A stretch of 57,634 bases of DNA from Porticoccaceae bacterium (GTDB lineage: Bacteria > Pseudomonadota > Gammaproteobacteria > Pseudomonadales > Porticoccaceae). Made by a program: the position numbers and the translations under genes. The DNA lies in NCBI GenBank assembly GCA_018654575.1, contig JABILI010000069.1, positions 1 through 57,634 of the forward strand, read 5' to 3'. The notes under the pieces were generated by a model, which saw only the letters and a list, made by a program, of their open reading frames with translations, was not told where the DNA came from and did not search any database. Shown here piece after piece: positions 34,785 to 54,910 of the stretch (position 1 is its first letter; every line of letters starts with the position of its first letter).

Positions 34785-34794
34785 AGTCTTCATC

Positions 34795-34912
34795 CTCCTT
34801 TGCTATAAATTCTTGGGTGCACTGTAAGTTGTGGCATTGGCTAGGTCAATACTTCGCAGGGCTTTAAAGTGGCCGACTAGTCACGCTCTGGAGTCTTTGG
34901 CGTTAGTGCCAA
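34795..34912 (-). promoter_or_regulatory. Promoter module, copy A (maoC operon)
   Basis: A sigma70-like promoter TTGACC (34849-34844), 17 bases, TACAGT (34826-34821), preceded by CTTTAAAG (34869-34862), GACTAGTC (34882-34875) and TGGCACTAACGCCAAAGACT (34911-34892). Bases 34795-34884 match copy B at 80 of 90 positions and 34820-34912 match copy C at 81 of 93, both ungapped. The conservation covers promoter and upstream boxes, arguing for shared regulation. Confidence 0.85.
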
Positions 34913-35000
34913 TTGCGCGACAACCTGCGCCATTCAAACTGCGTGTGGTCAATATTACATTATTACCATTTAGCAACCTCATTGATTGCCTTGGTTTTAC

Positions 35001-36728
35001 TTAGTCTGCTCCGTGCATCATTTTACTAATCACCGGCGAAATCAATAACATCAGCACTGCTATACCAATAGCAATAAAACCAACTTGAGTGTACACCTCA
35101 ATGTAACCGGCTTTTGCCGCGCCAACATTAGTCATCTGCCCGCCAATGGTCTCTGCACCGGTAGTACGAGCAATAACGCCCGCCAAGAAGTTAGACAAAC
35201 CAGAATAAAGAAACCAGGCCCCCATGGTCATGCCGACAATTCTAGCTGGCGCCAGCTTAGTCACCGCTGAGAGGCCAACCGGCGACACCATCAATTCACC
35301 CATAGTGTGTACCCAATAGATCAAGAAGATGAAGATTACTGGCGTTAGGCCCACCTCACCAGAGCCTTTCATGCCGGCCACTAACGCTAAAAAGCCCAAA
35401 CCTGCCATAGCCACTCCCAGTGCGAACTTCACTGGAGTTGACGGGTTAAGCTTGCGCCTGGCAAGCCAAATCCAAAGCCAAGCCATAATGGGTGCAAACA
35501 TAAAGATAAAACCGGCATTCAATGACTGAAATACAGGTCCAGGAACAGACCAGCCGAGCATTTCTCGATCAACTAAACGAGCCGTAAACAGATTCAGTGA
35601 AGAGCCCGCCTGCTCAAAAAGGGCCCAGAAAGGGATCTGAGCTAAAACAAAATAGACTGCCGCCAGCATTCGTGACCGCTCATCACCCTTAAGGTGAATA
35701 AAAGCGTGACTGACCAACCAGACAAACATCAGAATACCCACAGGCCCTAAGATACCGCCAACCAGTTCCGCATTCATCACCAATAGCATGGAGGCGGCAA
35801 TGATGGCCAAACCAACCGAATAACATAGCCATTCCACATTAACGCCAAGAAATACTTTCTCTTTTAATTTTTCTGGATTCGGCGGCTCAGCCTTACCCTC
35901 AAGCCAGCTCTGGCAGGAAAGAAAAACAACTAGGCCGAAAAGCATACCTATACCCGCCAGACCAAAGCCATATTTCCAACCGTGCACAATACCCAAATAG
36001 CCACAGGACAGAGACGCCAAAAATGCACCCATATTGATACCCATGTAAAAAATGGTAAAGCCCGAATCTCTGCGTGTATCACCAAAACCATAAAGTGAGC
36101 CCACAATGGTTGATATATTCGCTTTCAAAAAGCCGACACCAGCGATGATGAGTGCTAATGATAAATAGAGGATATTTAGATATTTCTCTTCCGTCTTTAC
36201 TGTCAAAGTGAATTCATCACGATCAATACTAGCAGGGAGACCAACAGACTCAGGGTTGGCGATATCCATAGTCGTCTCAGTAAAGTTTACGTACGAGGCA
36301 CCAATATCGGTAACAATCTGCTGGCGCGCATCACCGCCACGGGCATCGAGGGCGATTTCATACTGATTCTCACCGTGGGTTAATAGCTGCTTAGATCCAT
36401 TCCCCTCAAAGGTCATTCCAAAGTGGCCAAAGGTAAGCAGTATTGCGCCAAAAGTCACAGCTTTGCGCGCACCCAAATATCGATCTGCCAAGGATCCACC
36501 AATAATGGTCATCACATACACCAGCGCACCGTAAGCCCCATAGAGAACACTGGAGCTCTCGTCGGACATTAAAAAATGCTGAGTCAGATAGATAATCAGT
36601 AACCCGCGCATCCCGTAAAAAGAAAAACGCTCCCACATTTCTGTTAAAAATAAGATAACTAGGCCACGCGGATGCCCCATAATAGTTTTCTCACCACTTT
36701 TATCGGCAGGTGGCATTGCTGTATCCAT
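35001..36728 (-). CDS. POT-family proton-dependent oligopeptide transporter
   Basis: Major facilitator of the POT/PTR2 family, importing di- and tripeptides with protons. The 575 aa begin with a family hallmark (LTEMWERFSFYGMRGLLIIY) and include ADRYLGARKAV, IFYMGINMGAFLASLSCGYLG and about 14 hydrophobic segments. Between the third and fourth predicted segments lies an unusually long hydrophilic stretch (about residues 105-190) probably exposed to the periplasm. Followed, on the same strand, by the maoC operon but separated by module A. Confidence 0.9.
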   Translation of the reverse strand: MDTAMPPADKSGEKTIMGHPRGLVILFLTEMWERFSFYGMRGLLIIYLTQHFLMSDESSSVLYGAYGALVYVMTIIGGSLADRYLGARKAVTFGAILLTFGHFGMTFEGNGSKQLLTHGENQYEIALDARGGDARQQIVTDIGASYVNFTETTMDIANPESVGLPASIDRDEFTLTVKTEEKYLNILYLSLALIIAGVGFLKANISTIVGSLYGFGDTRRDSGFTIFYMGINMGAFLASLSCGYLGIVHGWKYGFGLAGIGMLFGLVVFLSCQSWLEGKAEPPNPEKLKEKVFLGVNVEWLCYSVGLAIIAASMLLVMNAELVGGILGPVGILMFVWLVSHAFIHLKGDERSRMLAAVYFVLAQIPFWALFEQAGSSLNLFTARLVDREMLGWSVPGPVFQSLNAGFIFMFAPIMAWLWIWLARRKLNPSTPVKFALGVAMAGLGFLALVAGMKGSGEVGLTPVIFIFLIYWVHTMGELMVSPVGLSAVTKLAPARIVGMTMGAWFLYSGLSNFLAGVIARTTGAETIGGQMTNVGAAKAGYIEVYTQVGFIAIGIAVLMLLISPVISKMMHGAD

Positions 36729-36778
36729 AGTCTTGATCCCTAAAATTTATTATGATGATGTTTATCTAATTAAATTAG

Positions 36779-36788
36779 CGCATATGCG
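36779..36788. promoter_or_regulatory. Palindrome in the divergent transporter/thioesterase region
   Basis: CGCATATGCG is a perfect 10-base palindrome about 50 bases upstream of the POT start. It could be an operator; the region is AT-rich and no promoter stands out. Confidence 0.2.
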
Positions 36789-36924
36789 ATTTTGTAAATT
36801 GCGAAAACCATACCACAGACTAAGGCGCTGAGTAAGCGACTGTAGTATCTAAACGCCGACCAACACACAATAATTCTGATGTAGGCGGCATTATTGAAAA
36901 AATACAGACAGGATTAACAAAAAC

Positions 36925-37350
36925 ATGAAAGACCTCAGCAAAACTCAGGCATTATTTTTAGACAACAAACCGGAATTTCTCGATATTCTTGGTTTTAAAA
37001 AAAGCTCATTTAGCAACGAATCCAGCATCTATTCATGTACCTTTGAGCCCTCAGAAGCACTAACCCACTCCAATGGCACCATCGTTCAGGGTGGTTTCAT
37101 CGCGGGCATGCTCGATTCAGCGATGGCTCAATATATTCTTCACCTAAATGAGTTCAAAGTTAACCCATTAACTCTAAACATTGATGTTACCTACTTGTTA
37201 CCCTGCAAGCCTGCAGAAGTTCAGGTGACATCAAAAATACTGAAAGCAGGTAAAAGTATCGTATTCACCACAGCAGAGTTAGTTCAAAATGGACATTTAA
37301 TAGCAACGGCATCAGCAACAAATAAACTCGTCCCATTCCCCAAGACTTAA
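36925..37350 (+). CDS. PaaI-type hot-dog thioesterase
   Basis: A 141-aa hot-dog protein of the PaaI/YbgC-like thioesterase group. The conserved catalytic stretch reads SNGTIVQGGFIAGMLDSAMA, where family members have an Asn/His-G-G motif followed by an acidic residue, and LTLNIDVTYLLP and ATASATNKL complete the fold. Such enzymes release dead-end acyl-CoAs and free CoA. It stands alone upstream of the first dehydrogenase pair. Confidence 0.8.
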   Translation: MKDLSKTQALFLDNKPEFLDILGFKKSSFSNESSIYSCTFEPSEALTHSNGTIVQGGFIAGMLDSAMAQYILHLNEFKVNPLTLNIDVTYLLPCKPAEVQVTSKILKAGKSIVFTTAELVQNGHLIATASATNKLVPFPKT

Positions 37351-37461
37351 CATCACAGCATAAATTAATATTAATATTTGTTATTTATCAAATACTTGTC
37401 TTATATTATTAATCTTATTTATTTTTTAATGTAATTGAGTGTATGTTTTTCCCCGATAGTT

Positions 37462-37492
37462 TTGGCGCCCAATCTAAATTTATTGGCACCAA
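37462..37492. promoter_or_regulatory. Imperfect inverted repeat upstream of dehydrogenase pair 1
   Basis: TTGGCGCCCAAT (37462-37473) and ATTGGCACCAA (37482-37492) form an imperfect dyad 65 bases before the start codon, in a 206-base AT-rich interval otherwise without genes. It is a candidate operator. Confidence 0.35.
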
Positions 37493-37556
37493 TTAAACAG
37501 ACCTACAATTACTGACTAGATAAGGTTCATTAAGGCACTAAAAGGAACCAACAGCA

Positions 37557-38792
37557 ATGACAGAGAGAAGCCAAGTGGCGGAACACAAAGACGCTGAAAG
37601 TGCAGAGTTATCAGACTTTCGCAAAGGTGTTGTTGACTGGATCAAACACAACACCCCTGCTGACCCCGGGTTTTTACTGCCGCAAACCTTTATGGAGGTC
37701 GGTTCAGAGCAGGTACTGGATTTTCTTCGTGAATGGCAGTATAAGGTTTGGGCAGCCGGTTATCTAGGCATGGCGTGGCCCAAACAGTACGGCGGTGGCG
37801 GCATGCCACGCTTGTTTCAACAAATTGCTGATGAAGAGATGAGGCGAGCTAGGGTACCTATCTGCTTTAACGTCATAGGTCTCGGATGGGCTGGCCCTCT
37901 GATTATCGACACTGGCACCGACTTCGAAAAAGAGACCTACCTAAAAGGGATTCTCACAGGCGAAGACATCTGGTGCCAGGGCTTCTCCGAACCCAACCAT
38001 GGTTCTGACCTGGGCAGCATTCAAACCCGGGCCGAGCGAGACGGCGAGGAGTATGTGGTCAACGGCAGCAAGATCTGGACGACCATGGGTAACTATGCCA
38101 AATATATGATTTTACTAGCTAGAACCGATGCGCAGGCTGAGCGCAGATATAATGGTCTGTCATTTTTTCTTGCTCCGATGGATGCCAAAGGTATTAGCAC
38201 CTCCCCCATTCAAAAGCTGACAGGCGAATACGGCTTCACAGAAACTTTCTTTACCGACGCCCGCATCCCCGCTAGTTGCATAATGGGCGAAGAAGGTCAC
38301 GGTTGGCGTATTGCCATGCAAACCCTCCAGTACGAACGCGGTGCAGAAGCCGGCGCCGCGGGCGGCGTGTCTATATTGTCCATAGTCATAAATGACCTGC
38401 TCAAGATGGCCCAAGAGGTTGAGCGAGACGGTCAGCCGCTTCTGCAAGATCCTATAACCCGAGACAACTTGGTGAAATTCTTGATTGAAGAGCACGCTCT
38501 TTACCTCGGTGAGCGGCGAGTTGGAATACCAGCCCTATGTCGTGACTACCCAAACTCTCTGGCCTTGTCAGGAAAATTACGAGGTACTGAGTTTTTCCGC
38601 CGAATGCGCCAATATGCACTAACCCTGCAAGGCGCGCCGGGATCCCTGTACGCAGGAGATGACCAAGCTGTCGACGGTGGTTTCTGGCAAAGAGCCTACC
38701 TGAACAACTTTTCCACCACTATTGGTGGTGGCACCAGCCAAGTTCAGGCCAACATCGTCGGCGAACACGTACTTGGCCTGCCAAAGGATTAA
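37557..38792 (+). CDS. Acyl-CoA dehydrogenase, probable catalytic subunit of pair 1
   Basis: FAD-dependent dehydrogenase of 411 aa that introduces the alpha-beta double bond. Typical blocks: WCQGFSEPNHGSDLGSIQT, VNGSKIWTTMGNYAKYMILLAR and the C-terminal IGGGTSQVQANIVGEHVLG. The MCAD catalytic glutamate (YEGT) is replaced by glycine (IGGGT); a glutamate instead occurs in LQYERG, the position used by isovaleryl- and long-chain enzymes. The next gene encodes a second, shorter dehydrogenase only 8 bases away, as in heterotetrameric enzymes for steroid side chains. Confidence 0.9.
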   Translation: MTERSQVAEHKDAESAELSDFRKGVVDWIKHNTPADPGFLLPQTFMEVGSEQVLDFLREWQYKVWAAGYLGMAWPKQYGGGGMPRLFQQIADEEMRRARVPICFNVIGLGWAGPLIIDTGTDFEKETYLKGILTGEDIWCQGFSEPNHGSDLGSIQTRAERDGEEYVVNGSKIWTTMGNYAKYMILLARTDAQAERRYNGLSFFLAPMDAKGISTSPIQKLTGEYGFTETFFTDARIPASCIMGEEGHGWRIAMQTLQYERGAEAGAAGGVSILSIVINDLLKMAQEVERDGQPLLQDPITRDNLVKFLIEEHALYLGERRVGIPALCRDYPNSLALSGKLRGTEFFRRMRQYALTLQGAPGSLYAGDDQAVDGGFWQRAYLNNFSTTIGGGTSQVQANIVGEHVLGLPKD

Positions 38793-38800
38793 AGGAAACA

Positions 38801-39934
38801 ATGATGACAAGAACAGCAAACCTTAAAATATCTTTTAGTGACGAACAAGCGATGATCCTTGACAGCGCCAAGGATTTTTGCCGTGATAAATCTGATATAG
38901 CCACCGTTCGTAGCCTATTAAAAACCGAAACCGGCTATAAAGCCGATGTCTGGACTGAAATGGTTGACCTTGGCTGGACCGGTCTGTCTCTGCCAGAGCA
39001 GTACGGTGGCTCTGAAATGAGCATAGGAGCGGCTATTCCGCTCGTGGAGAGTATGGGCCGATATTTGCTTTGCACGCCCTTTATATCGTCAACCATTGCC
39101 GCACAGGCCATTCTGCGCGGCGGTAACGACGCCCAAAAGCATCGCTGGCTCCCTACTATGATTGAGGGTGCTATCGGCACTATGGCGATATTAGACAACG
39201 AAGACTGGGGCGCTACGCGAATCGACTGCACCCTAACACCTAAAGACGGTGATTTTATTCTTGATGGCATTAAGCTGCAGGTCAATGACGCTGCGGTGGC
39301 AGATATATTTATCGTCTTAGCCTCTGCTAACGGCGTACCAACGCTTGTTGTGGTTAATGCCAGTCAGTTGCCTAAGGGCTCGATTAGCAACAAAACCCTT
39401 GTAGATGAAACAAAGCGCGCGTCCAATGTTGATTTTAGCGGCGTCACCATCAAGCCCGATGCCATATTGGCCAATGGCGCTGAGGCCCTGCCAGATCTTC
39501 GGCTGATTGGTGCCCTCTTGACTGCCGCAGAAGCCACAGGTTCCGCTGCTGCAGCTTTAGACACCATTGTTGACTACCTCACCACCCGCAAGCAGTTTGG
39601 GCGCTTAATCGGCTCCTATCAGGCTTTAAAACATCCTACGGTAGACATCTTGTTGCAAATGGATTCGGCACGGACCTTTATTTACCATGCTGCCACCCTC
39701 ATTAACGATGAAAGCCTAGACAAAGATACTCAAATCGCGTGCCGCATGGCCAAGGCGCAGGCCACAGATGCTCTGCTATTTGCTGGCGATCGAGCAGTGC
39801 AATTCCACGGCGGCATGGGCTTTACCTACGACTGCGACGCAATGCTATATATCCGTCGCGCTCAATGGGCACAACACCAGTATGGCGATGCCCAACATCA
39901 CCGTAAATTGCTAGCCCCCCTGTTACTCGACTAA
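38801..39934 (+). CDS. Acyl-CoA dehydrogenase, probable non-catalytic partner of pair 1
   Basis: 377 aa with the dehydrogenase fold (FSDEQAMILDSAKDFCRDK; TRKQFGRLIGSYQALKH; VQFHGGMGFTYDCDAMLY). The central substrate loop is degenerate and no glutamate is seen at either usual base position, features of the beta subunit in alpha2-beta2 dehydrogenases where FAD sites are shared. Translationally close to the preceding catalytic subunit. The specific substrate is unknown. Confidence 0.87.
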   Translation: MMTRTANLKISFSDEQAMILDSAKDFCRDKSDIATVRSLLKTETGYKADVWTEMVDLGWTGLSLPEQYGGSEMSIGAAIPLVESMGRYLLCTPFISSTIAAQAILRGGNDAQKHRWLPTMIEGAIGTMAILDNEDWGATRIDCTLTPKDGDFILDGIKLQVNDAAVADIFIVLASANGVPTLVVVNASQLPKGSISNKTLVDETKRASNVDFSGVTIKPDAILANGAEALPDLRLIGALLTAAEATGSAAAALDTIVDYLTTRKQFGRLIGSYQALKHPTVDILLQMDSARTFIYHAATLINDESLDKDTQIACRMAKAQATDALLFAGDRAVQFHGGMGFTYDCDAMLYIRRAQWAQHQYGDAQHHRKLLAPLLLD

Positions 39935-39949
39935 AGGCGCGCTAACCAC

Positions 39950-40360
39950 ATGAAAAGCATTAAGCTTAGGATCTTTACACTGATGTTTTGGTCCGGGCTC
40001 AGCAGCCTAGTCGAGGCTAGCGGTTTAATCCAGCTAACCGGCGAAGAGATCCGCCAAGTGTTTAGCAACGTGAAAGATATAGCTCAGGTGCAAGATTTGT
40101 CAAAGACACGCGCCACAAATATGTGGCTCGATGACGGGCGCTTTACCAGTACCTGGCGCAATGAAAATGCAGATGGAATTGTTACAGGCACCTGGTATGT
40201 GCAAGACAGCCAACGTTGTGTGAGTATTCAAACAGGCCTGCCGAAGGCCGCTAGAGAGGCCAAATGCGGGCCTATCTACCGCCAAGACGATCGCTATTTT
40301 TCAGTTAATTCAGATGGCAGCATCCACGGGATACATCAAATATTGCCCCTAGACAAGTAA
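39950..40360 (+). CDS. Small secreted protein of unknown function
   Basis: 136 aa with a probable Sec signal peptide (KLRIFTLMFWSGLSSLVEAS) and no later membrane segment, so likely periplasmic. The mature part has GTWYVQDSQRCVSI and a second cysteine in AKCGPIYRQDDRYF, resembling small beta-rich domains in which a Trp-containing strand is followed by two cysteines that could form a disulfide. I do not recognise a named family with certainty. It ends the operon with dehydrogenase pair 1. Confidence 0.65.
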   Translation: MKSIKLRIFTLMFWSGLSSLVEASGLIQLTGEEIRQVFSNVKDIAQVQDLSKTRATNMWLDDGRFTSTWRNENADGIVTGTWYVQDSQRCVSIQTGLPKAAREAKCGPIYRQDDRYFSVNSDGSIHGIHQILPLDK

Positions 40361-40362
40361 GC

Positions 40363-40383
40363 GCAGCTCTTCAAAAGAGCTGC
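40363..40383. terminator. Hairpin terminator between convergent genes
   Basis: GCAGCTCTT (40363-40371) and AAGAGCTGC (40375-40383) form a perfect 9-bp stem with a 3-base loop directly after the secreted-protein stop and before the convergent GST stop. The following plus-strand sequence is only moderately T-rich. Confidence 0.6.
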
Positions 40384-40395
40384 TACTTTCCATTT

Positions 40396-41007
40396 CTATT
40401 GCATATTTATGGCTTTATTAAAGCTAGGCCTGGACTCTATTTTATCGATGTAGGCCTTAATATTCGTCATATTGTCAGTAACACAACCATTTCTATTGGC
40501 CATAAAGCATGCATGCCCCAGCATTACATCAGCCGCAGAGAAATCGCCAATCAAGTAGTCTTTTCCCTCTAACGTTTCATTAATAGGCGCCAGGGATTTA
40601 GTCAGCAGATTTTCAGCTTGCCGCAAGGTATTTGCGTCTCTGCGGTCTGGTGGCAACAAAAACTTTTGCACAACAATCTGATTCATAGGTGGCATGACCA
40701 TGCCTTCGCAGTAATGAAACCATTGTAAATAGAGAGGGAATTCAGCCGCATCGACCGAAGGCTTCAAGCCCCCATTGATGTGTCGCTCTAGAATATAATC
40801 GATGATTGCACCTGATTCATAAAGGGAGATATCACCGTCTTCCAGCACCGGCACTCTGCCCAGAGAATGTCTAGCTCTGTGCTCGCTTGATTTAAGCCCT
40901 TCCTTAGTAAAAGGCATACTATTAACCTCGTACTCTAGGCCTAGCTCTTCTAATAACCACACGACTCGCCCTGCTCTGGTCCCAGCCACGAAATGAACTT
41001 TTAACAT
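40396..41007 (-). CDS. Glutathione S-transferase-like protein (first)
   Basis: 203 aa from the ATG at 41007, which has GAGGAG 7 bases upstream (an in-frame TTG further up overlaps that site). The N-terminal thioredoxin-like domain reads VHFVAGTRAGRVVWLLEELGL, with the cis-proline region GRVPVLEDGDISLYESGAI; the all-helical C-terminal domain follows with FSAADVMLGHAC. Role could be conjugation, isomerisation or detoxification of reactive intermediates from the acyl-CoA pathway. Confidence 0.85.
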   Translation of the reverse strand: MLKVHFVAGTRAGRVVWLLEELGLEYEVNSMPFTKEGLKSSEHRARHSLGRVPVLEDGDISLYESGAIIDYILERHINGGLKPSVDAAEFPLYLQWFHYCEGMVMPPMNQIVVQKFLLPPDRRDANTLRQAENLLTKSLAPINETLEGKDYLIGDFSAADVMLGHACFMANRNGCVTDNMTNIKAYIDKIESRPSFNKAINMQ

Positions 41008-41059
41008 AAGTTTTCTCCTCAATTATTAGATTAATAAAATCCTAACAGTTATTTTTCAT

Positions 41060-41218
41060 CTATGGGTAGCGTTCAATAAATCGCTTTATCTCATCAAACG
41101 TCTCTGCGGCTGCGTCAGTTTGAGTACAGGCGCTAACAAAGGGTATGTGGCCGCGAAACTCATTCATGATCTTGCGAAGATATTTTGTGCGTTGTTTAAA
41201 AGGTATTCCTATAAAGAA
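41060..41218 (-). pseudogene. Possible C-terminal relic of an unidentified gene
   Basis: Between the GST and the dehydrogenase pair, a 52-codon minus-strand frame bounded by stops encodes coding-like sequence, including LRKIMNEFRGHIPFVSACTQ and then ETFDEIKRFIERYP. It has no start signal and ends 53 bases before the GST start. It looks like the tail of a deleted gene, but I cannot name the family; it might also be chance. Confidence 0.3.
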
Positions 41219-41257
41219 TTAGATACAGACTTTGATTTTATCAAAAAAAACTTTTCC

Positions 41258-41368
41258 TCATGCAAAAACCTTCCCAGAAGGAAGGTCATGAGTATGTTTG
41301 TCTCTTCTAGGCCACTTACAACCAACAACTATGACAATTGCAATGGCCGCGATAATGACTAGCACCAT
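41258..41368 (-). CDS. Candidate small membrane peptide (36 aa)
   Basis: Two bases after the stop of the dehydrogenase pair an ATG opens a 36-codon frame: MVLVIIAAIAIVIVVGC, then KWPRRDKHTHDLPSG and a short tail. The first 16 residues form an ideal single membrane helix followed by basic residues. An AGG lies 8 bases upstream. The operon terminator hairpin overlaps its last codons. No homologue is known to me; evidence is the hydrophobic pattern and the tight spacing. Confidence 0.4.
   Translation of the reverse strand: MVLVIIAAIAIVIVVGCKWPRRDKHTHDLPSGKVFA
41264..41286 (-). terminator. Rho-independent terminator after dehydrogenase pair 2
   Basis: On the minus strand ACCTTCC (41286-41280) pairs perfectly with GGAAGGT (41274-41268) around TTCTG and is followed by more T (to 41264); a second run of eight T lies at 41250-41243. 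It closes the operon driven by module B. Confidence 0.75.
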
Positions 41369-41370
41369 AG

Positions 41371-42528
41371 TTAGCCTGAGTAGCTTAGTTGATTAAACGC
41401 CTTTTGATGAAAATCACCATCCCCATAACTAGTATTGATCATCATTAGCCGCTTAACGTAATGGCCAATGTTCAGTTCGTCAGTCATGCCAATGCCGCCA
41501 TGCAACTGGATCGCCTCTTCTCCAATAATTTTGCCATAGCGCGCCACTGTAGCCTTCAAAGCATGTACCGTTTTGGCTAATGCAACCGCGTCGGTTTCAC
41601 CTTCGACAACACTTTTTGACTCACAAAGAGCACGATAAAGCATAGATTTGGTCTGTTCACAGCCCATAAAGGTGTCGACCATTCGGTGCTGTAACACTTG
41701 GAATGAGCCAATCGGCGCACCAAACTGCTGACGAGTCTTGGAATATTCTACGGTCAGCGTATTAAGTGTTGCCATAATACCCAGGGCTTCCGCAGACAAA
41801 CCGATTAAGATTTGCGGCATCACCTGGTCGATGAGGTCCATGCCCTCGCCAGCCGTGTTGAGCAAGTCGCTTTGGTTAACGGCAACATCCGTTAACATTA
41901 GCGTAGCCGCACTCTGGCCGTCCATCATCTTATAAGCTTTAACCTCAACACCTGGTGCTGCAGTGTCGACCATAAAAAGACTCACACCATTGCGGTCAAA
42001 TTGCTCGCCACTGGTGCGGGCACTAACAATGAACTTGTTCGCTGTGCCGCCATTGGTGACCACGGTTTTTACGCCGCTTAGAGTATAGCCGCCAGCACTA
42101 GCTGTTGCAGTGGTCGACACGTCACTCATTTCGTAACGCGACTGCGGCTCCATGTGCGCAAAAGAACCTAAACAATTACCCTCAATAATACTAGGAATAA
42201 TTTGGCTCTTTAGATCTGAGTTAGAGGCTGCAGACAACAGACCTCCAAATACGACCACGGTTGAGGCAAAGGGCTCAACAACAATACCTTTACCCATTTC
42301 TTCCATCACCGCGGCTATATCAACTACGTTGCCACCAAAACCGCCGTACTCTTCAGAAAAGGGTACTGACAGCCAGCCAAGTTCGGCAAACATTGACCAA
42401 AACTCGCGACTGATACCATCGTCAGACTCGATAATCCCACGACGTGCATCAAAGTCATATTGCTCACGAACAAAACGTGACACGCTGTCTTTGATCATGA
42501 TTTGTTCTTCGGAAAACTCAAAATTCAT
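41371..42528 (-). CDS. Acyl-CoA dehydrogenase, probable non-catalytic partner of pair 2
   Basis: 385 aa with the usual landmarks (FSEEQIMIKDSVSRFVREQ; TRQQFGAPIGSFQVLQHRM; IQLHGGIGMTDELNIGHY). As in pair 1, the shorter member lacks a clear catalytic glutamate (LHGGIG in the C-terminal loop; the alternative position falls in IGLSAEALG) and probably forms a heteromer with the upstream gene product. GGAG lies 7 bases before its ATG. Confidence 0.88.
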   Translation of the reverse strand: MNFEFSEEQIMIKDSVSRFVREQYDFDARRGIIESDDGISREFWSMFAELGWLSVPFSEEYGGFGGNVVDIAAVMEEMGKGIVVEPFASTVVVFGGLLSAASNSDLKSQIIPSIIEGNCLGSFAHMEPQSRYEMSDVSTTATASAGGYTLSGVKTVVTNGGTANKFIVSARTSGEQFDRNGVSLFMVDTAAPGVEVKAYKMMDGQSAATLMLTDVAVNQSDLLNTAGEGMDLIDQVMPQILIGLSAEALGIMATLNTLTVEYSKTRQQFGAPIGSFQVLQHRMVDTFMGCEQTKSMLYRALCESKSVVEGETDAVALAKTVHALKATVARYGKIIGEEAIQLHGGIGMTDELNIGHYVKRLMMINTSYGDGDFHQKAFNQLSYSG

Positions 42529-42570
42529 ACTTAAACTCCAGAAATTTATTTAGGGCCATAAACCGCTGTT

Positions 42571-43755
42571 TTAAAGCCCGAGAACGGCTTTGGCAATTAC
42601 ATTTCGCTGCACTTCGTTAGAGCCGCCGTAAATAGTGGCGGCACGACCATACATGTACTTGCCGCGCGCTTCGGCTGCAAAATCATGCCCAAGCTCGTCG
42701 CTGCTCAGATCACCGGGCAATGCGCCTCCGTAGTTGGCTGCCAATTGCAACTGTAGCTCGTGAATGGCTTGACTGATCTCAGTGCCTTTAATTTTCAATA
42801 GTGAGGATTCCGGCCCAGGCATGCCACCGCCTGCCATCGAGGCAAATACACGCAGTTCGGTGTATTCCAGCGCCATAAGCTCCATTTCAATATCTGACAT
42901 GCGCATTTGAAAGACCGGATCTTCGATCATCGGCTTGCCACCATTGATCTCGGTAGTAGCGCGCTGCTTAAGGCCTTCGAGCATGCGCTTAGAGTCCGCA
43001 ACTTCGGCCATGCCTGTGCGCTCATGGGCCAACAGGGCCTTCGCGTATGTCCAACCTTTGTCCTGCTCACCAATGAGATTTTCGATCGGTACGGCAACGT
43101 CTTCAAACAATACTTCGTTGAGGCTGTGCTTGCCGTCGATAGTCACAATAGGCTTAATCGTAATACCAGGGGTATTCATGTCAATCAGCAAGAAACTAAT
43201 CCCCTCTTGGCGGCGAATACCCTTAGAGGTTCTTACTAGGCAAAAAATCCAGTCAGCGTACTGAGCAAAGGTAGTCCAAATCTTACGACCATTAACTATA
43301 TAATTGTCGCCAGCATAGTCCGCTGAAGTACTAAGTGCCGCCAAGTCTGAACCAGCACCAGGCTCTGAGTAACCCTGACACCACCAGTCTTCACTGTTGA
43401 GTATGCGCGGCAAGAACCGTGCTTTTTGCTCCTCGGTACCAAAGGTGTAAATTACCGGTGCAACCATTTTCAGACCAAACGGTACCACGTCAGGAATACC
43501 CGCTAGGCCGCGTTCAGTTTCATAAATAAACTTTTGTGTGCTAGACCAACCTGTGCCGCCATATTCTTTGGGCCAACCTGGTGCTATCCAGCCTTTGGCA
43601 TGTAGCTTTTTTTGCCAGCCAACAATCGCACTCTTGTAGTCCGTAGCCGAATTATCACTTAGGCGAGTCGATGCATCGCCTTCGTATTCGGCGACGAAAA
43701 ACCCTCGGACTTCATCTCGAAAAGCAATGTCTTCTGCTGAAAATTTTATATCCAA
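42571..43755 (-). CDS. Acyl-CoA dehydrogenase, probable catalytic subunit of pair 2
   Basis: 394 aa from a TTG at 43755 with GGAG 8 bases upstream; longer in-frame starts fall inside the promoter module (the furthest is the -35 box itself) and are rejected. Sequence marks: GYSEPGAGSDLAALST, VNGRKIWTTFAQYADWIFCLVR, a glutamate in LLAHERTG at the isovaleryl/long-chain position, and glycine in place of the MCAD base in IYGGSNEVQRN. First gene of the operon controlled by module B. Confidence 0.9.
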   Translation of the reverse strand: MDIKFSAEDIAFRDEVRGFFVAEYEGDASTRLSDNSATDYKSAIVGWQKKLHAKGWIAPGWPKEYGGTGWSSTQKFIYETERGLAGIPDVVPFGLKMVAPVIYTFGTEEQKARFLPRILNSEDWWCQGYSEPGAGSDLAALSTSADYAGDNYIVNGRKIWTTFAQYADWIFCLVRTSKGIRRQEGISFLLIDMNTPGITIKPIVTIDGKHSLNEVLFEDVAVPIENLIGEQDKGWTYAKALLAHERTGMAEVADSKRMLEGLKQRATTEINGGKPMIEDPVFQMRMSDIEMELMALEYTELRVFASMAGGGMPGPESSLLKIKGTEISQAIHELQLQLAANYGGALPGDLSSDELGHDFAAEARGKYMYGRAATIYGGSNEVQRNVIAKAVLGL

Positions 43756-43763
43756 TTGCGTAG

Positions 43764-43853
43764 CTCCTTTGCTATAAATGCTTAGGGGCACTGTAAATTG
43801 TGGCATTGTCTGGGTCAATACTTTGCAGGACTTTAAAGCGGCCGACTGGTCAC
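43764..43853 (-). promoter_or_regulatory. Promoter module, copy B (dehydrogenase pair 2)
   Basis: TTGACC (43818-43813), 17 bases, TACAGT (43795-43790), CTTTAAAG (43838-43831) and GACCAGTC (43851-43844). It aligns with copy A at 80 of 90 positions without gaps, the match ending upstream at GTGAC and downstream at the ribosome binding site AAAGGAG. The farther-upstream TGGCA/CCAAAGACT box present in copies A and C is absent here. Confidence 0.85.
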
Positions 43854-43928
43854 ACTAGCGGTTTAAGATCAAATTCCACACTTTCAATTGGTGCCATCCC
43901 AAGCTAGATGCATTGATTTTTAAATAAG

Positions 43929-43952
43929 GCCCATCAAATGAAGCTGATGGGC
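43929..43952 (-). terminator. Terminator after the FadH-like gene
   Basis: GCCCATCA (43929-43936) and TGATGGGC (43945-43952) make a perfect 8-bp stem with an 8-base loop; the minus strand continues CTTATTTAAAAA. It lies 70 bases beyond the stop of the dienoyl-CoA reductase gene and ahead of module B. Confidence 0.6.
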
Positions 43953-44021
43953 AATTAAGCATCCGACCTAAATAGCAACACACGCCATAGCGTCGTTACG
44001 GTAGTCATCAAATAGTATTTA

Positions 44022-46720
<2,699 letters not shown>

Positions 46721-46749
46721 ACCAAACCTCTGTGGTTGTATGTTGTGTG

Positions 46750-48759: not shown

Positions 48760-48816
48760 TAATATATTACCTTAACTAATTGTTTTATATGTTTTAATTA
48801 TTGATTAAATAAGGCT

Positions 48817-49638
48817 TTAGGCATCTTCATTCCAATAGGGCTTACGTTTTTCAACAAACGCTGCAACACCTTCTACGCCCTCTGAACTGAGCATGCATTG
48901 AGCAAAACCTTGGGATGCAAAATCCAAAGCCTCTGACCTTGGGCGGCGCAATGTTTCAAACAAAATTCCTTTAGTCGCCGCATTAGCTCCTGGGGCGCAT
49001 GCGTTAATTTGCTGTAAAATAGAGGCACATTGCGCCTCCAACTCCTCTACATCAGCAGCAACGCCATGAGCGATGCCTAGCTTAACCGCCTCCTCTCCCT
49101 TAAACCGCGCACCAGTAAGCATTAGACGGCGGGCCTGAGTAAGTCCAACACGCTCGGTCACAAAGGGTGCAATCTGGGCTGGTGGGATGCCTAAACTAGC
49201 CTCGCTTAACCGGAATCGTGCATCTGCAGTAACCAGAGTGACGTCCGCAACACAGGCTAGCCCAAGCCCGCCGCCAATAGCGGCGCCTTCAACCAAGATA
49301 ATCACCACCTGAGGCTGTTCGTTAAGCATGATCATAACGTCACCAAATGAGCGGTTACTCTTGGCCACTTCGTCGGCATCAACGGTTTGCATGCCTGATT
49401 TAAAGCCTTTGATATCGCCGCCAGCGCAGAAGAAGCCGCCTTTACCACGCAAAACAATAGTACGAATACTGCGATCATCTTTGACCAAAGTCAGTACGTT
49501 AACGAGCTCTTCAGTCATCTCAGCGTTCAGAGCATTTTTTGCCTCAGGGCGGTTAAACCAAACCTTCAACACAGAGCCCTGCCTATCTAGTACCAGTGAA
49601 TTTGTTACCGGCAATTGCGTTTTAGCTAGATCACTCAT
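48817..49638 (-). CDS. Enoyl-CoA hydratase, AtuE/LiuC-like
   Basis: Crotonase-fold enzyme of 273 aa with the oxyanion-hole segments GKGGFFCAGGDIKGF and EGAAIGGGLGLACVADV and the active-site stretch SEASLGIPPAQIAPFV. That stretch reminds me more of isohexenylglutaconyl-CoA hydratase (AtuE) than of methylglutaconyl-CoA hydratase (LiuC), but this is from memory without an alignment. GGAG sits ahead of the ATG. It hydrates the product of the flanking carboxylase. Confidence 0.88.
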   Translation of the reverse strand: MSDLAKTQLPVTNSLVLDRQGSVLKVWFNRPEAKNALNAEMTEELVNVLTLVKDDRSIRTIVLRGKGGFFCAGGDIKGFKSGMQTVDADEVAKSNRSFGDVMIMLNEQPQVVIILVEGAAIGGGLGLACVADVTLVTADARFRLSEASLGIPPAQIAPFVTERVGLTQARRLMLTGARFKGEEAVKLGIAHGVAADVEELEAQCASILQQINACAPGANAATKGILFETLRRPRSEALDFASQGFAQCMLSSEGVEGVAAFVEKRKPYWNEDA

Positions 49639-49668
49639 GTAATTATCTCCACTAGTGTGTAAATTCGG

Positions 49669-51291
49669 TTATAGACGTGCAACGCCAAAACTATTAGGGC
49701 GCAACTTTCTGTAACGACCTTCACGAACCGTTTCCAGCAGCATTCCTAGAGTTTTACGCATGTTGCGCGGATCAATCATGCCGTCGTCCATCATGTGTCC
49801 GGAAGTGTAAAAAGCATCAGATTGAGAATCAAAGATATGCGCCATCATCTTTTCTTGTTGCGCCAACATCTCTTCGTCTGCGTCTACGCCCATAGCAGCC
49901 GCTTTCCCGCGCGCCACCATAGACATGGTCTTAGCTGCCTGCTCGCCGCCCATTACGCCCATCTTTGCGTTGGGGAAGGTATAAAGGAAGTCCGGATCAT
50001 AACCACGCCCACACATGCCATAGTTACCAGCACCGAAGCTGGCGCCGGTCATAAAGGTAATCCGCGGCACATCGATGTTGCGCACGGCCTGAATCATCTT
50101 TGATCCGTGCTTAATCATGCCCGCCTGCTCAGACTTAGTGCCAACAATATAGCCAGTAGTATTTTGGAAGAATAACGCTGGAATGTTCGCCTGATCTAGC
50201 AACTGCAAAAACTGGGTCACTTTATTCGCGCCCTGGGGGTCGATAGGGCCATTATTGCCAATAATACCTACCGCTTGGCCAAATATTTCGGCTTGAATAC
50301 ACACCGTAGACACACCAAACCGAGGTTTAAAGTCCAAGAAATCAGAGCCATCAACCACACGAGCAACGAGCTCACGCATATCGTAGGGCGTGCGGTAATC
50401 CGTTGGAATTACACCGGCTAATTCATCCGGATCATAGATTGGCTCAAGGAACGACCGTTTGGCGGGTAGTGGGCAGTTATCGTTCCACTGCAGACGATCG
50501 ATGACTTCACGGCAGATTTGTATACCCTGCCCGTCGTTCTCAGCCAGATATTCAGCCAAACCCGAAATGGTGGCATGCATTTCGGCACCGCCTAACTCTT
50601 CTTCGGTAGCAATTTCACCCGTGGCTGCCTTAAGCAGTGGTGGCCCTGCCAAAAAAGCCCGTCCATTTCCTTTGATCGCAATAACATAGTCACTCAGACC
50701 AGGCATATAGGCTCCACCCGCTGTCGATGAGCCATGAAGTATAGAAATGACCGGAATGCCAGCTTTACTTAACTGCGCCAGCGCGCCAAAAAGTGCGCCG
50801 CCAACACTAAAGCCCTCAACCGTATAGTTCATTAAATCGCCGCCGGCGCTTTCTACAAGGTGAACAAAGGGCAGCTTTTGATCCAAAGAGACCTGTTCAG
50901 CTCGACGAATTCTGTAACCGCCTGCCGTCGTTAAAGAACCCGCTAAAATACCACTATCATCGACAACGACCACGCATCGCACACCGGAAATAAAGCCAAT
51001 ACCAGAGATAACCGTTGATCCTGGGATGGACTTCTCCTCTTTCTTGGTATCGACCATATAACCCGCTATGTTGCCTATTTCTAAAAACGGCATACCTGGA
51101 TCAAGCAAGCGAGCTAAACGCTCCCGAGGCGTTAACTGTCCTCGGGCATCAAAGCGTGGCTTACGCTTCTCCGAGGCTGCACGGCCACGCCCATTAAGCT
51201 CATTGAGCCGATCAACAAGCTCTAACATCTCTTTACGCTGACGTAAAAAAGTTTCTGAACTGGTGTTTATTTTTGAGGAAAATACCGCCAT
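49669..51291 (-). CDS. Acyl-CoA carboxylase beta subunit (carboxyltransferase), AtuC/LiuB-like
   Basis: 540 aa, the length of geranyl-CoA and methylcrotonyl-CoA carboxylase beta chains. Landmarks: RGQLTPRERLARLLDPG, HGSSTAGGAYMPGLSDYV and FFQNTTGYIVGTKSE, TGASFGAGNYGMCGRGYDP. In the substrate pocket, ALFGALAQLS appears to have glycine where methylcrotonyl-CoA carboxylase has an aromatic residue; such a change was reported to let geranyl-CoA carboxylase accept a longer chain. I therefore lean to AtuC, not proven without alignment. Confidence 0.92.
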   Translation of the reverse strand: MAVFSSKINTSSETFLRQRKEMLELVDRLNELNGRGRAASEKRKPRFDARGQLTPRERLARLLDPGMPFLEIGNIAGYMVDTKKEEKSIPGSTVISGIGFISGVRCVVVVDDSGILAGSLTTAGGYRIRRAEQVSLDQKLPFVHLVESAGGDLMNYTVEGFSVGGALFGALAQLSKAGIPVISILHGSSTAGGAYMPGLSDYVIAIKGNGRAFLAGPPLLKAATGEIATEEELGGAEMHATISGLAEYLAENDGQGIQICREVIDRLQWNDNCPLPAKRSFLEPIYDPDELAGVIPTDYRTPYDMRELVARVVDGSDFLDFKPRFGVSTVCIQAEIFGQAVGIIGNNGPIDPQGANKVTQFLQLLDQANIPALFFQNTTGYIVGTKSEQAGMIKHGSKMIQAVRNIDVPRITFMTGASFGAGNYGMCGRGYDPDFLYTFPNAKMGVMGGEQAAKTMSMVARGKAAAMGVDADEEMLAQQEKMMAHIFDSQSDAFYTSGHMMDDGMIDPRNMRKTLGMLLETVREGRYRKLRPNSFGVARL

Positions 51292-51323
51292 CTGGCTGTC
51301 TCCGTCTATCTTATAAGGTAATT

Positions 51324-53144
51324 TTAATGATTAATTTCTGCTGCAATAGCCGCACTAACCGGAATTGAAGCGTCGAGCATCAACTGGCCGAAGCCCTTGC
51401 CTTGAGCGTCGTTGCGAATACTCGCCATGCCACCACCACCAAGAACATCGTGAATCAAAAAATTAATAGCGTTAGACCCTGGCATTAGATAGCGCTCGAC
51501 ATAGCAGTCACTTTTTTGCACGGCGCCTTCAGGTAAAAAATGCGAAAAACGTTCAGCAACTACCTGCACAGTTAACGCGTCGAAAATATAAGGGAGGTAC
51601 TCGGGGTCACGAGCAATAATACCCACATTCGCTTTATTACCTTTGTCGCCACTGCGGGCCAACGCCAGCTTAATAAGGGGAACGCTCACCATATCCCTAT
51701 GATCAGGTCCTATTGGCGCCTGTGGTCGCACAATTTGATCGAGATTGAGCGGTGTGCCCTGACTATCTGGGCAGTCAATGTAGGTGCCATCAAGCTCGAC
51801 TTGAATCGGCAAATTGCCCTTGGATAGCGCAAAGGAAAATAACCTAACCACTGGTGATGGCTTAGGTCGCGCGCCAGCGAAGCCAGACAATCCAGGTGGT
51901 GTGGCCAGACCAAGACCCACGCACTCTTTTAAAAGTATACCGATGCCCGCAGGATCTGCGTGTTTTACGGCAATCTTCATGGACAGTTCTCGACAATTGG
52001 CCACAGCCGCATTAGCGCCGTACTGACTTTCAGCGCCAATTAACTCGACACTAGTTTCACTATAATCCTCTAAACCAAACATTTTTAGAGTTCTTCGCGA
52101 TGCAGTAAAAATAGCAGCGGCCAGCTTGTTAGCCTTTTTGTCGGCATCAAAGCCATAAAAGGTCATAGTTGTCCCGCCACGGAACTGATCAGCGTAGGTG
52201 CTACAGACTTTATAGGTGTCTGGTGCAGGCAAGCCAGTGGCGCCCGTCACTTCGACAAGATTTTCACCAACCTCAGTTAATGTCACGTTGGAGAAGTCGC
52301 AAACAACATCCGGCAATATATAGGCTTGGGGATCACCAATTTCATAGACCATCTGCTCTGCGATGGTGCCTACTGAAATAAGACCACCTGTCCCCTCAGG
52401 CTTAGAGCAGACAAAGCTACCATCGGTTTTAATTGCTGCAATTGGATAGCCAATATTCTCAAGATTATTAGATAGCTCCCAATCAGTAAAGTTGCCCCCA
52501 GTTGCCTGTGGTCCGCACTCTAAGATGTGACCAGCAAGAGAGCCCATGGCCAACTGATCAAGATCATCGCGACCCCAACCAAAGGCATCGATACAGACGC
52601 CCAGGGTGACTGCACTGTCTACACAGCGTCCGGTAACCACAATGTCCGCGCCCTCTTTCAGCGCCCGAGCGACTGGAAAGGCACCCAAATAAGCATTAAT
52701 ACTGGCGACTTTTTCTACATCAGGAAAATCATCACCAGAAAACATTTCTTTGTAACCATGGGCTGCCACTTTATCTCGCTGGCTAATCATGTCATCGCCC
52801 AATATACAGGCAACTGTGAGGTTTAAACCCAATTCAGCAATTACCACACGGAGTGCATTGGCGCAGGCCTGAGGATTGACACCGCCGGCATTAGATACAA
52901 TACGCACACCCTGACGGGCAATTTCTTTGAGGTTGGGCTTCATTGCCGCACTGACAAAATCTAAGGCATAGCCAGCGTCTGGATTTTTAGCCCGCGCACG
53001 CGCCATAATCGACATGGTAATTTCGGCAAGATAGTCATAGACAATAAAGTCTACGTTTTCGTCTTTCAGTAATTGTGGCGTCGCTCGCGCAGCATCGCCC
53101 CAAAAGCCGCTAGCACCAGCAATACGAATAACTTTCTCACTCAC
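51324..53144 (-). CDS. AtuA-like protein (DUF1446 family)
   Basis: 606 aa from the GTG at 53144, chosen because AGGAGG stands 7 bases upstream and lies inside the longer frame. The family domain begins VIRIAGASGFWGDA and includes NAGGVNPQAC, GRCVDSAVTLG and FYGFDADKKANKL; a smaller C-terminal domain follows (LALARSGDKGNKANVGIIAR). AtuA is required for acyclic terpene use in Pseudomonas but its reaction is not settled. It heads the operon AtuA-carboxylase beta-hydratase-carboxylase alpha-GST-FadH. Confidence 0.92.
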   Translation of the reverse strand: MSEKVIRIAGASGFWGDAARATPQLLKDENVDFIVYDYLAEITMSIMARARAKNPDAGYALDFVSAAMKPNLKEIARQGVRIVSNAGGVNPQACANALRVVIAELGLNLTVACILGDDMISQRDKVAAHGYKEMFSGDDFPDVEKVASINAYLGAFPVARALKEGADIVVTGRCVDSAVTLGVCIDAFGWGRDDLDQLAMGSLAGHILECGPQATGGNFTDWELSNNLENIGYPIAAIKTDGSFVCSKPEGTGGLISVGTIAEQMVYEIGDPQAYILPDVVCDFSNVTLTEVGENLVEVTGATGLPAPDTYKVCSTYADQFRGGTTMTFYGFDADKKANKLAAAIFTASRRTLKMFGLEDYSETSVELIGAESQYGANAAVANCRELSMKIAVKHADPAGIGILLKECVGLGLATPPGLSGFAGARPKPSPVVRLFSFALSKGNLPIQVELDGTYIDCPDSQGTPLNLDQIVRPQAPIGPDHRDMVSVPLIKLALARSGDKGNKANVGIIARDPEYLPYIFDALTVQVVAERFSHFLPEGAVQKSDCYVERYLMPGSNAINFLIHDVLGGGGMASIRNDAQGKGFGQLMLDASIPVSAAIAAEINH

Positions 53145-53214
53145 CCTGATTCCTCCTCGAAATGTCCCAAACCGCACTTATAGCGCCATGAATAGTACTT
53201 TGCTACGGTTATTT

Positions 53215-53234
53215 AGTCTTTGGATTGTATGCCA
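53215..53234 (-). promoter_or_regulatory. Box shared with promoter modules A and C, ahead of the AtuA-like operon
   Basis: On the minus strand TGGCATACAATCCAAAGACT matches the upstream box of module A at 15 of 20 positions, with both ends (TGGCA and CCAAAGACT) identical. It lies about 70 bases before the AtuA-like start. A candidate promoter TTGATG-17-TAAATA overlaps it. Confidence 0.45.
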
Positions 53235-53262
53235 TCAACATTAGAGCCCATGCCAATCGTTA

Positions 53263-54576
53263 TTAAGCTAAATTCGGCGATGAGGTCTTAGATTTACTCC
53301 TTTCAAGATAAATCGAGGCGGCAATAAAGCTAGCAGGTGCAGCCCAGCTGATAATATCAGCCGTTAACAACGCCTTAGTTAGTGGATCAAAAACTCCGTT
53401 GGAGGAAAAGGCGTCACTAAGATAACCTGTCATAAATGCGCCGATACCAAGACCCAGAAGATTGCAGGCTACCAGCAACAAACCCGTCATCACACCTCGC
53501 AATCGCACGGGAGTAAGGTCCTGCACCGTTGAAAATGCCGGGCCATAAAATGAACTAACACTGAACATACCGGCCGCCATACCGACATAAAACAGGACTG
53601 ATGAGGCTGGCACGAACCTATAGAAGACTAACAGCGGGGTTACCATCAGCATCAAATAAGCTAGGAACCTTACCCTGCCACCCTTATAGCGAGCTTGATA
53701 CCAATCGCTAAGAATACCACCTAAAAATGTGCCAGCTGTACCAAATACTATATAAATGAGCCCATAGGTGGCACTGATTTCACCAAGACCAAAACCCCTC
53801 TCTCGCTCTAGCCAAACAATCGCAAACTGGCCTGCACCCAGTGGTATATGCAAAAATACCGCACCAATCATGGTCCAAGCTAAGGCTGGAGTGGATTTAA
53901 CCACTGAGAACACATCAACGACTACTCGCCACCAATTACTGCCGATTAAGCCCTCTTCTTGGTCTCCCCCTCCTGCAGTATCCTGTTCCTCCATTGCCCC
54001 GCGCTTTGGATCTTTGAGGAACAATAGGCCTAGGGCTAACATAAGCCCGATGGCACCCATAAGAAGAAAGCAGTTGCGCCAGCCAATCATAGGTCCGAGA
54101 ACACCGGCAACAATAAAACTGCCGCCCGCTCCTAAGGGCACACCAAGATAATAAATACCCGTGGCTGTACCTCTTTTTGCTTTAGGGAAAAGGTCAGCAA
54201 TCATTGATATAGCAGACGGTGTCATTGCAGACTCACCGACACCGATAAATAGGCGCGCCATACCAATCTGCACAAAGTTTTTCGCCACCCCGGACAAAGC
54301 CGTCAAAACGCTCCACAGCACCAGGCCTAATGCGATTAAACGCGGCCGATGGACCCGGTCAGCGAGGGCGCCCATAAAGAGGCCCATAATGGAATAAAAG
54401 AAAACAAAAATCAGCCCTGTCAGCAGGCCAAATTGAGAATCGCTCAAGTTAAGATCGGTAATAATAGCGGTACCAAAACTGGTGATTAAGGTCCGATCGA
54501 CCATATTTAAAATATTAAGAGCTAATAAGAATACTAAGATTCCCGTTGCACGAGGTGGCGACTTCATTTGATCCAT
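53263..54576 (-). CDS. Major facilitator superfamily transporter
   Basis: 437 aa with twelve predicted membrane segments. The first half contains LNMVDRTLITSFGTAII and the conserved MFS loop GALADRVHRPRLIALGL between TM2 and TM3; WWRVVVDVFSVVKS marks the central loop. It resembles the spinster-like subgroup (GVGESAMTPSAISMIADLFP) found beside aromatic, steroid and terpenoid degradation genes. Direction and substrate are unknown; uptake of the pathway's carboxylic acid is a reasonable guess. Confidence 0.9.
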   Translation of the reverse strand: MDQMKSPPRATGILVFLLALNILNMVDRTLITSFGTAIITDLNLSDSQFGLLTGLIFVFFYSIMGLFMGALADRVHRPRLIALGLVLWSVLTALSGVAKNFVQIGMARLFIGVGESAMTPSAISMIADLFPKAKRGTATGIYYLGVPLGAGGSFIVAGVLGPMIGWRNCFLLMGAIGLMLALGLLFLKDPKRGAMEEQDTAGGGDQEEGLIGSNWWRVVVDVFSVVKSTPALAWTMIGAVFLHIPLGAGQFAIVWLERERGFGLGEISATYGLIYIVFGTAGTFLGGILSDWYQARYKGGRVRFLAYLMLMVTPLLVFYRFVPASSVLFYVGMAAGMFSVSSFYGPAFSTVQDLTPVRLRGVMTGLLLVACNLLGLGIGAFMTGYLSDAFSSNGVFDPLTKALLTADIISWAAPASFIAASIYLERSKSKTSSPNLA

Positions 54577-54606
54577 TCTGACAATACCTATTTGATTGTT
54601 TTAATT

Positions 54607-54636
54607 TTTATAATGAGTCAAATCATCAAATCTCAA
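54607..54636 (-). promoter_or_regulatory. Candidate promoter of the MFS gene
   Basis: TTGAGA (54636-54631), 18 bases, TATAAA (54612-54607), about 30 bases before the ATG. It diverges from module C in the same 334-base interval, so the two could be controlled together. Confidence 0.4.
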
Positions 54637-54748
54637 GCTTAGCCACAGACCTAGTTTAAGATGCCAACTTCTTGATCAACCGCGCCAATTAAGGTTGAAA
54701 CTTTATCTTACCCTAAACATTCTTTATATGTTTTTCATAATGCAAATG

Positions 54749-54841
54749 TTGTCACTAACGCCAAAGACTACAGAGCCTGACTAGCCGGACACTTTAAAGC
54801 CCTGTAAAGTATTGATTTGGCTAATGCCATAACTTACAGTG
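54749..54841 (+). promoter_or_regulatory. Promoter module, copy C (SCP2 gene)
   Basis: TTGATT (54812-54817), 17 bases, TACAGT (54835-54840), with CTTTAAAG (54792-54799), GACTAGCC (54779-54786) and TGTCACTAACGCCAAAGACT (54750-54769). It matches copy A at 81 of 93 positions without a gap, in opposite orientation on the chromosome but the same orientation relative to its gene. Confidence 0.85.
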
Positions 54842-54910
54842 TGTATTGTATTAAAGAGCACATCGCACTATTTGCGGAGCGCTATAATTCTTATAAAGAG
54901 GAGCGTTAGT

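Follow-up and report, generated by a model that had tools for sequence, protein, structure and literature searches.

The 57,634-nucleotide contig JABILI010000069.1 of an uncultured marine Porticoccaceae bacterium (assembly GCA_018654575.1; this whole stretch is called the window here) carries, within one cluster of acyl-CoA catabolism genes, three closely similar promoter-sized sequences that stand before non-homologous genes. How did one control region come to lie at three places, and what could it do there? A previous interpretation made from the letters alone (the sequence-only reading) left two answers side by side, duplication of the control region without duplication of the genes, or its selective retention. 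By comparing the three copies with the corresponding regions of related genomes, we consider it probable that a regulated core of the type found at the promoter of a large acyl-CoA dehydrogenase gene (copy B) was copied into the promoters of maoC (copy A) and of an SCP2-family gene (copy C) of the same cluster, giving co-regulation.

Copy A (34795–34912, minus strand) precedes the maoC, SDR and thiolase genes (32137–34793, minus), copy B (43764–43856, minus) the genes of the large and small acyl-CoA dehydrogenase subunits (41371–43755, minus), and copy C (54749–54841, plus) the SCP2-family gene (54911–55210, plus). BLASTN within the window aligns them without indels: A and B are 88.2% identical over 93 bp (E 4e-28), A and C 87.1% over 93 bp (E 1e-26), and B and C 78% over 64 bp. 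A recount gave exactly the 80 of 90 positions that the sequence-only reading had reported for A and B, and its 81 of 93 for A and C is consistent with our value. The repeat is thus real, but the common 90-bp module described there is not, since A and B share alignment columns 26–118 whereas A and C share columns 1–93, leaving a core of about 68 bp that is common to all three (identities 60/68 for A/B, 58/68 for A/C and 52/68 for B/C). Likewise, the similar distance to the gene holds for A and B, with 36 and 34 nt from the -10 box to the likely start codons at 34784 and 43755, but not for C, where it is 70 nt. The listed maoC start at 34793 abuts the Shine-Dalgarno sequence, and the in-frame ATG at 34784 agrees better with relatives and is the likelier start.

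The threefold repeat far exceeds chance. An unfiltered model scan of the window gave 60.9, 53.0 and 46.4 bits for the three copies and 6.1 bits for the next place, and no other repeat of the window is longer than 48 nt, the remaining 15 direct families reaching at most 48 nt and 81% identity. A fourth copy is absent from the assembly (2,419,146 bases, or 2.42 Mb, in 103 contigs, 97.55% complete): BLAST gives A, B and C and then a 17-base match at E 1.6, and two sequence-only models, R1, derived from A, B and C (E<=1), and R2, for which nine dehydrogenase promoters were used and A and C left out (E<=0.1), each give three places. Further copies before other lipid-catabolism genes, which the sequence-only reading had named as support for a regulon, were therefore not found in this genome; the only part of the module that recurs elsewhere in it is the sub-element O2 described below, in a form stricter than that of A, B and C.

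The origin of the repeat can be read from the genus, for which we used 50 genomes of the SAR92/Porticoccaceae type (the window's genome and 49 others, one genome per species, often incomplete). With R2, 11 of the genomes yielded near-full-length matches, 13 in all (E 1.3e-20 to 5.8e-12): the window's genome has three, and G024, G015, G003, G007, G027, G042, G020, G030, G032 and G049 have one each. Nine of the ten single copies lie directly 5' of an ortholog of the large acyl-CoA dehydrogenase gene, the exception being G032, in which the protein match starts at residue 132 and leaves the gene start unplaced. In a named collection of genomes, a pattern scan returned five records, four of them metagenome-assembled genomes of Porticoccaceae, Cellvibrionales or SAR92 with the match 5' of a large acyl-CoA dehydrogenase gene, and a fifth, titled Oscillatoria, without the cluster genes. 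A tree of 30 dehydrogenases places the window's genome in one group with G003 and G027 (support 98/91). Because nearly all single copies of relatives sit before the orthologous dehydrogenase gene, B is, judging from this comparison, the ancestral site of the module. Compared with G003, the core at this site is 88% identical (59/67) and the third codon positions of the dehydrogenase gene 68%, and the core is by this measure under selection at B. The 88% identity between A and B is not, taken alone, a sign that the copying was recent.

Weak R1 and R2 matches were excluded from the module count. Of six that we inspected, three consist of O2-like sequence in or ahead of OYE, SDR or ligase-type gene clusters, two look like chance, and one is a remnant in G045 (partial R2 match, E 2.1e-6), a genome with no dehydrogenase match at E<=1e-80; this remnant of a dehydrogenase promoter (L191, G045:C60, 1–680) has lost its gene and stands next to a TetR-like gene that the contig end truncates. 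Just 5' of B, at 43929–43952 on the minus strand, lies a terminator-like hairpin that would part the dehydrogenase unit from the OYE gene.

Across the upstream regions compared, 30 each for maoC, the dehydrogenase and SCP2, A and C are REPLACEMENTS. These regions cover 30 of the 35 genomes with a maoC match, 30 of the 38 with a dehydrogenase match (34 with an ortholog of at least 80%; the region of G031 has 74 bases only) and 30 of the 43 with an SCP2 match. BLAST with the three cores (E<=1e-3) gave no match in the other maoC regions (29) or in the other SCP2 regions (29); this search is less sensitive than R2, matching only 6 of the 30 dehydrogenase regions, and whole-genome searches of the genus with R2 also gave no full-length copy at maoC or SCP2 of other genomes. 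Replacement of two promoters in this genome is thus well supported by the comparison. Of the two answers of the sequence-only reading, control-region duplication without gene duplication is supported and gains a polarity, B being old and A and C replacements seen only here, while selective retention is not supported; ancient, equal modules kept by selection were rejected as well, the relatives being without the core at maoC and SCP2.

Copy C is a graft. When it is aligned with the SCP2 upstream regions of G003, G027, G007 and G015, native sequence appears on both sides of the core, which occupies approximately 54774–54841: TTGTCACTA, one further base and CGC upstream, and GTATTGTAT and more downstream, are all SCP2-native. 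The 5' part of C agrees with the SCP2 leaders of the four relatives at 17–19 of 26 positions, and C keeps the -35/-10 register of their SCP2 promoter. The alignment therefore shows chimeric joints, with C lying inside the resident SCP2 promoter. In G003 and G007, an aminoglycoside-phosphotransferase-like gene stands between the MFS and SCP2 genes; it is missing from the cluster here (54576–54911), and its best match in the window's genome is 34% identical.

Copy A is a mosaic, in which the 68-bp core is preceded by 25 bp resembling C (A/C 23/25, A/B 5/25) and followed by 25 bp with the Shine-Dalgarno sequence resembling B (A/B 22/25, A/C 8/25). Since the SCP2 leaders of relatives resemble C in its 5' part, an SCP2 leader was the source of the corresponding part of A. 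The ribosome-binding leader of A itself is B-like, and a mosaic of this kind implies more than one passage of sequence between sites. The native maoC promoter of relatives is gone, and the spacer between maoC and the upstream PTR2-type gene measures ~524 bp in G003 and ~207–216 bp here. Short inverted traces of the old maoC promoter may lie 5' of A (34850–35000), although these matches are weak (16/16 bases with G007, E 3.5e-4; an 11-mer with G027, E 0.18). The palindrome GACATNNNATGTC, present in 14 of the 30 maoC upstream regions (13 times within ACCGGACATNNNATGTC), is absent here; it was rejected as a shared signal because it occurs in no dehydrogenase or SCP2 region.

As to where the core came from, the distance between the upstream box O1 (described below) and TTGAC is 34 bp in A, B and C and 35–36 bp in G003, G027, G007, G015, G020, G024 and G042, and the common spacing would favour copying inside this genome. 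More than one transfer is needed, in whichever order they took place.

Judged from its boxes, in which the invariant columns of the module cluster, the copied part resembles a sigma-70 promoter and includes two operator-like dyads. The TTGA(C/T)(C/T)-17-TACAGT pattern of the sequence-only reading is found as TTGACC-17-TACAGT in A (34821–34849, minus) and B (43790–43818, minus), both consensus matches, and as TTGATT-17-TACAGT in C (54812–54840, plus), in the register of the relatives' SCP2 promoter; a consensus promoter scan that finds A and B does not report C. The palindrome CTTTAAAG (A, 34862–34869, minus; B, 43831–43838, minus; C, 54792–54799, plus) lies between O1 and the -35 box, presumably at the position expected of an UP element. 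It keeps a fixed register with the GACYAGYC box, as had been claimed, but this box is merely the left part of the 14-bp dyad TGACY-N4-GGNCR, which we call O1 (TGACTAGTCGGCCA in A, 34870–34883, minus; TGACCAGTCGGCCG in B, 43839–43852, minus; TGACTAGCCGGACA in C, 54778–54791, plus).

O1 is centred near -63, counted from the -35 box, and is found in 10 of 11 near dehydrogenase promoters, that of G017 having one change. In G033 and G017, 23 bp separate O1 from TTGAC, 11–13 bp fewer and thus about one helical turn less. This position and the shift by about one helical turn suggest that O1 is a candidate activator site. As a genome-wide operator O1 was rejected: of the 15 sites outside A, B and C, 14 fall inside reading frames (including one exact), and a longer exact form occurs only in A, B, C and one site inside a reading frame. 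The lone further intergenic O1-like site, at C82:14400, has one mismatch; a site on C24 is covered by a frame. A perfect dyad, TGACCNNNNGGTCA, lies near the start codon in three maoC upstream regions of other genomes.

A further operator-like dyad, O2, can be read over the -35 box in TTGACC...TGCCA; its left half is part of that box, and this overlap makes O2 a candidate repressor site. In A (34832–34848, minus) and B (43801–43817, minus), TGACC-N7-TGCCA is one change from TGRCA-N7-TGYCA, and in C (54813–54829, plus) the stretch TGATT-N7-TGCCA has a degenerate left half; near genomes have TGACC or TGACG as the left half at the dehydrogenase. TGRCA-N7-TGYCA was found in 20/30 dehydrogenase, 8/30 maoC and 0/30 SCP2 upstream regions, against null means of 0.03–0.07 from first-order Markov resampling of each region, a null that ignores shared ancestry, while spacers of N6 or N8 gave none in the same 90 regions. 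The maoC sites occupy several positions. Because O2 is present at both the dehydrogenase and maoC in some relatives, the regulatory link at maoC may be an old one that the copying re-established, while that at SCP2 would be new. A second dyad, TGCCAYA-N8-TGTGGC, overlaps the -10 box in 10 of the 30 dehydrogenase upstream regions, all outside the O1 group.

The stricter form of O2, TGRCANNNNNNNTGYCAHWA, has A/T-rich ends (best TTATGGCA-N7-TGCCATAA) and gave 13 matches at 9 places in the window's genome, compared with 1 in the reversed control; it looks like an operator, as far as this can be predicted. Four of the nine places are intergenic, beside sulfatase-like, permease-like, hydrolase-like (with TTATGGCATTGACCATGCCATAA) and glutathione-S-transferase-like genes, two are at frame edges, one at a hydrolase-like gene and one where an aminoglycoside-phosphotransferase-like gene faces a transferase-like gene, and three are inside frames, the gene names being judged from the sequences with no family search. 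The places between or at the edge of such catabolic-looking genes are C13:9332, C34:25143, C79:21456, C93:1369, C19:131301 and C79:17632 (L163, L166, L169, L172, L164 and L167).

Taken together, B would long have served the large dehydrogenase gene as its regulated promoter, and the core of B, consisting of the O1 box, a TTTAAA stretch, the -35 box with O2 and the -10 box, would have been copied by recombination into two promoters of the same ~25-kb cluster. At SCP2, the inside of the resident promoter would have been replaced and its flanks and register kept; at maoC, the resident promoter and its ribosome-binding leader would have been replaced, and 25 bp of SCP2-leader-like sequence carried along. 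The three transcription units (dehydrogenase pair, maoC-SDR-thiolase and SCP2) would then share one or two regulators, of which one would bind O1 in its activator-like position and another O2 in its repressor-like position. That the copies act as promoters, that regulators read them, that the units are co-regulated and that the copying took place inside the genome and not by import from a close relative is what we infer from these comparisons. A broader claim seems to us possible rather than probable: that a catabolic regulon was enlarged by transplanting a promoter core with two operators, in one case by swapping the upstream box and spacer and keeping the resident -35/-10 register, that O1 and O2 belong to undescribed regulators, and that O2 rules a wider SAR92-type catabolic regulon.

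Several observations weigh against the copying of a regulated core within this genome. TACAGT is a weak -10 box. O1 is not enriched in the genome, with 18 sites at <=1 mismatch compared with 15 in the reversed control; O2 is exact in none of the copies, A and B deviating by one change and C by two, and its dehydrogenase count is not independent. No regulator was linked to O1 or O2 when AraC and cluster-linked TetR genes were examined. The 34-bp spacing also occurs in G049, the core of C is closer to A (56/66) and to the G003 promoter (54/66) than to B (only 50/66), and that of A is nearly as close to the G027 promoter (57) as to B (58). The donor is thus not proven by core identities, and import from a relative is conceivable. 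Moreover, one genome per species does not allow fixation of A and C in the species to be judged.

The change may have had no selected regulatory consequence, if short ectopic exchange between promoter regions was neutral. The native SCP2 promoter already has TATTGATT and TTA-AGTG of the module, a short homology that could seed such exchange, and TTGATT of C may itself be native. We regard this explanation as unlikely, since both targets belong to one pathway and both received the core in working orientation, the invariant columns gather in the boxes, and conservation of the core at the B site far above third codon positions means that altering it probably matters. Alternatively, a close relative might already have carried the module before SCP2 or maoC and passed it on, as the closeness of the C core to G003 would allow; this is distinctly unlikely, because the 49 other genomes searched, often incomplete, contain no such arrangement and because the 34-bp spacing is common to all three copies.

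Dispersed, near-identical intergenic repeats of ~90 bp also resemble small mobile elements (miniature inverted-repeat transposable elements or repetitive extragenic palindromes) that happen to contain a promoter, an origin that we consider very improbable here. The module lacks the terminal inverted repeats and fixed ends of such elements: its boundaries differ by pair, A and B contain no inverted repeat >=7 and C only chance-sized ones of 8–11, no copy lies elsewhere in the genome, and B occupies one orthologous place across genomes. Convergence, in which three promoters separately gained sites for the same regulators, is barely credible even though O2 alone recurs without the module, because the identity of the copies runs through spacers and flanks. 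Nor is it any more credible that an RNA leader element was what was copied, for, although A and B share a transcribed leader with its Shine-Dalgarno sequence, the part common to all three stops at the -10 box, the leader of C is native, and there is no Rfam match there at gathering scores.

Copying of a promoter core is thus the reading that we compare with known systems. Promoter propagation is recognized by highly similar promoter-length intergenic sequences before non-homologous genes, and such near-identical sequences are what we find here. Compared with the mobile promoters of Matus-Garcia, Nijveen and van Passel (2012) and van Passel, Nijveen and Wahl (2014), as far as the excerpts of PMC8049555 citing them go, the present case differs in that the ancestral site is readable from relatives, that the copies lie within one pathway cluster and that one of them is a graft inside a resident promoter; function at each place has here the support of consensus matches for A and B and none for C. 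It also resembles the regulatory switching by transfer of non-coding DNA described by Oren et al. (2014; excerpted in PMC5890482), in that orthologous maoC and SCP2 genes of close relatives have non-homologous promoters (at SCP2, a non-homologous core). Here, however, the sequence appears to have come from a different promoter within the cluster and not from an allele of the same promoter, and as to horizontal acquisition, the 34-bp spacing favours copying within the genome whereas core identities do not. Going by these excerpts, the copying is a well-resolved case of a known kind.

Discussions of how regulons grow mostly consider individual binding sites that mutation creates. In the present case, the ancestral promoter, the promoters that were replaced and their joints are readable from the sequence, which points to whole-promoter copying as another route, and its likely effect is that unrelated genes of one degradation cluster were probably brought under one switch. 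The O2 dyad may serve as a handle for finding a catabolism regulator in this marine group. Our literature search did not turn up O1 or O2, which is weak evidence of novelty; for the O2 half-sites it gave letter matches in 1,299 papers, the 15 titles listed appearing unrelated, and for SAR92 regulons, promoter duplication and SAR92 terpenoid catabolism nothing on point.

The cluster itself encodes AtuA, biotin carboxylase, carboxyl transferase, enoyl-CoA hydratase, acyl-CoA dehydrogenases, an OYE-type reductase, MaoC, SDR, thiolase and SCP2, together with transporters and an alkyl-sulfatase-like protein. Among solved structures, the carboxyl transferase best matches the geranyl-CoA carboxylase beta subunit (5ikl_B, 602 bits; next 443), and the dehydrogenase large subunit best matches 4x28_A; the dehydrogenase pair is nearest to the PimC/PimD models, under their cut-offs. 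These matches point to degradation of branched, terpenoid-like acyl chains as the probable role. The acyclic terpene utilisation (Atu) clusters of pseudomonads have the regulator AtuR. The window cluster resembles them in AtuA, the geranyl-CoA-carboxylase-type carboxylase subunits (a predicted activity) and the enoyl-CoA hydratase, and differs from them in its PimC/PimD-nearest dehydrogenase pair, SCP2 and AraC gene; a Pfam scan limited to 29 window proteins gave no TetR match either, on a contig that ends just past the AraC gene.

The AraC neighbour (56752–57612) was rejected as the reader of O1, because G033, G017 and G049 keep O1 without an AraC match (32 of the 50 genomes match at E<=1e-40; G049 is only 80% complete). 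The TetR gene beside the G045 remnant was likewise rejected, being matched in G045, G015 (where the match contains one in-frame TGA) and G030 and not in the window's genome. Within the cluster, an open reading frame of 136 amino acids (39950–40360, plus) has no Pfam match. The sole Rfam match of the window at gathering scores is a t44 RNA (RF00127) at 20514–20619 on the minus strand.

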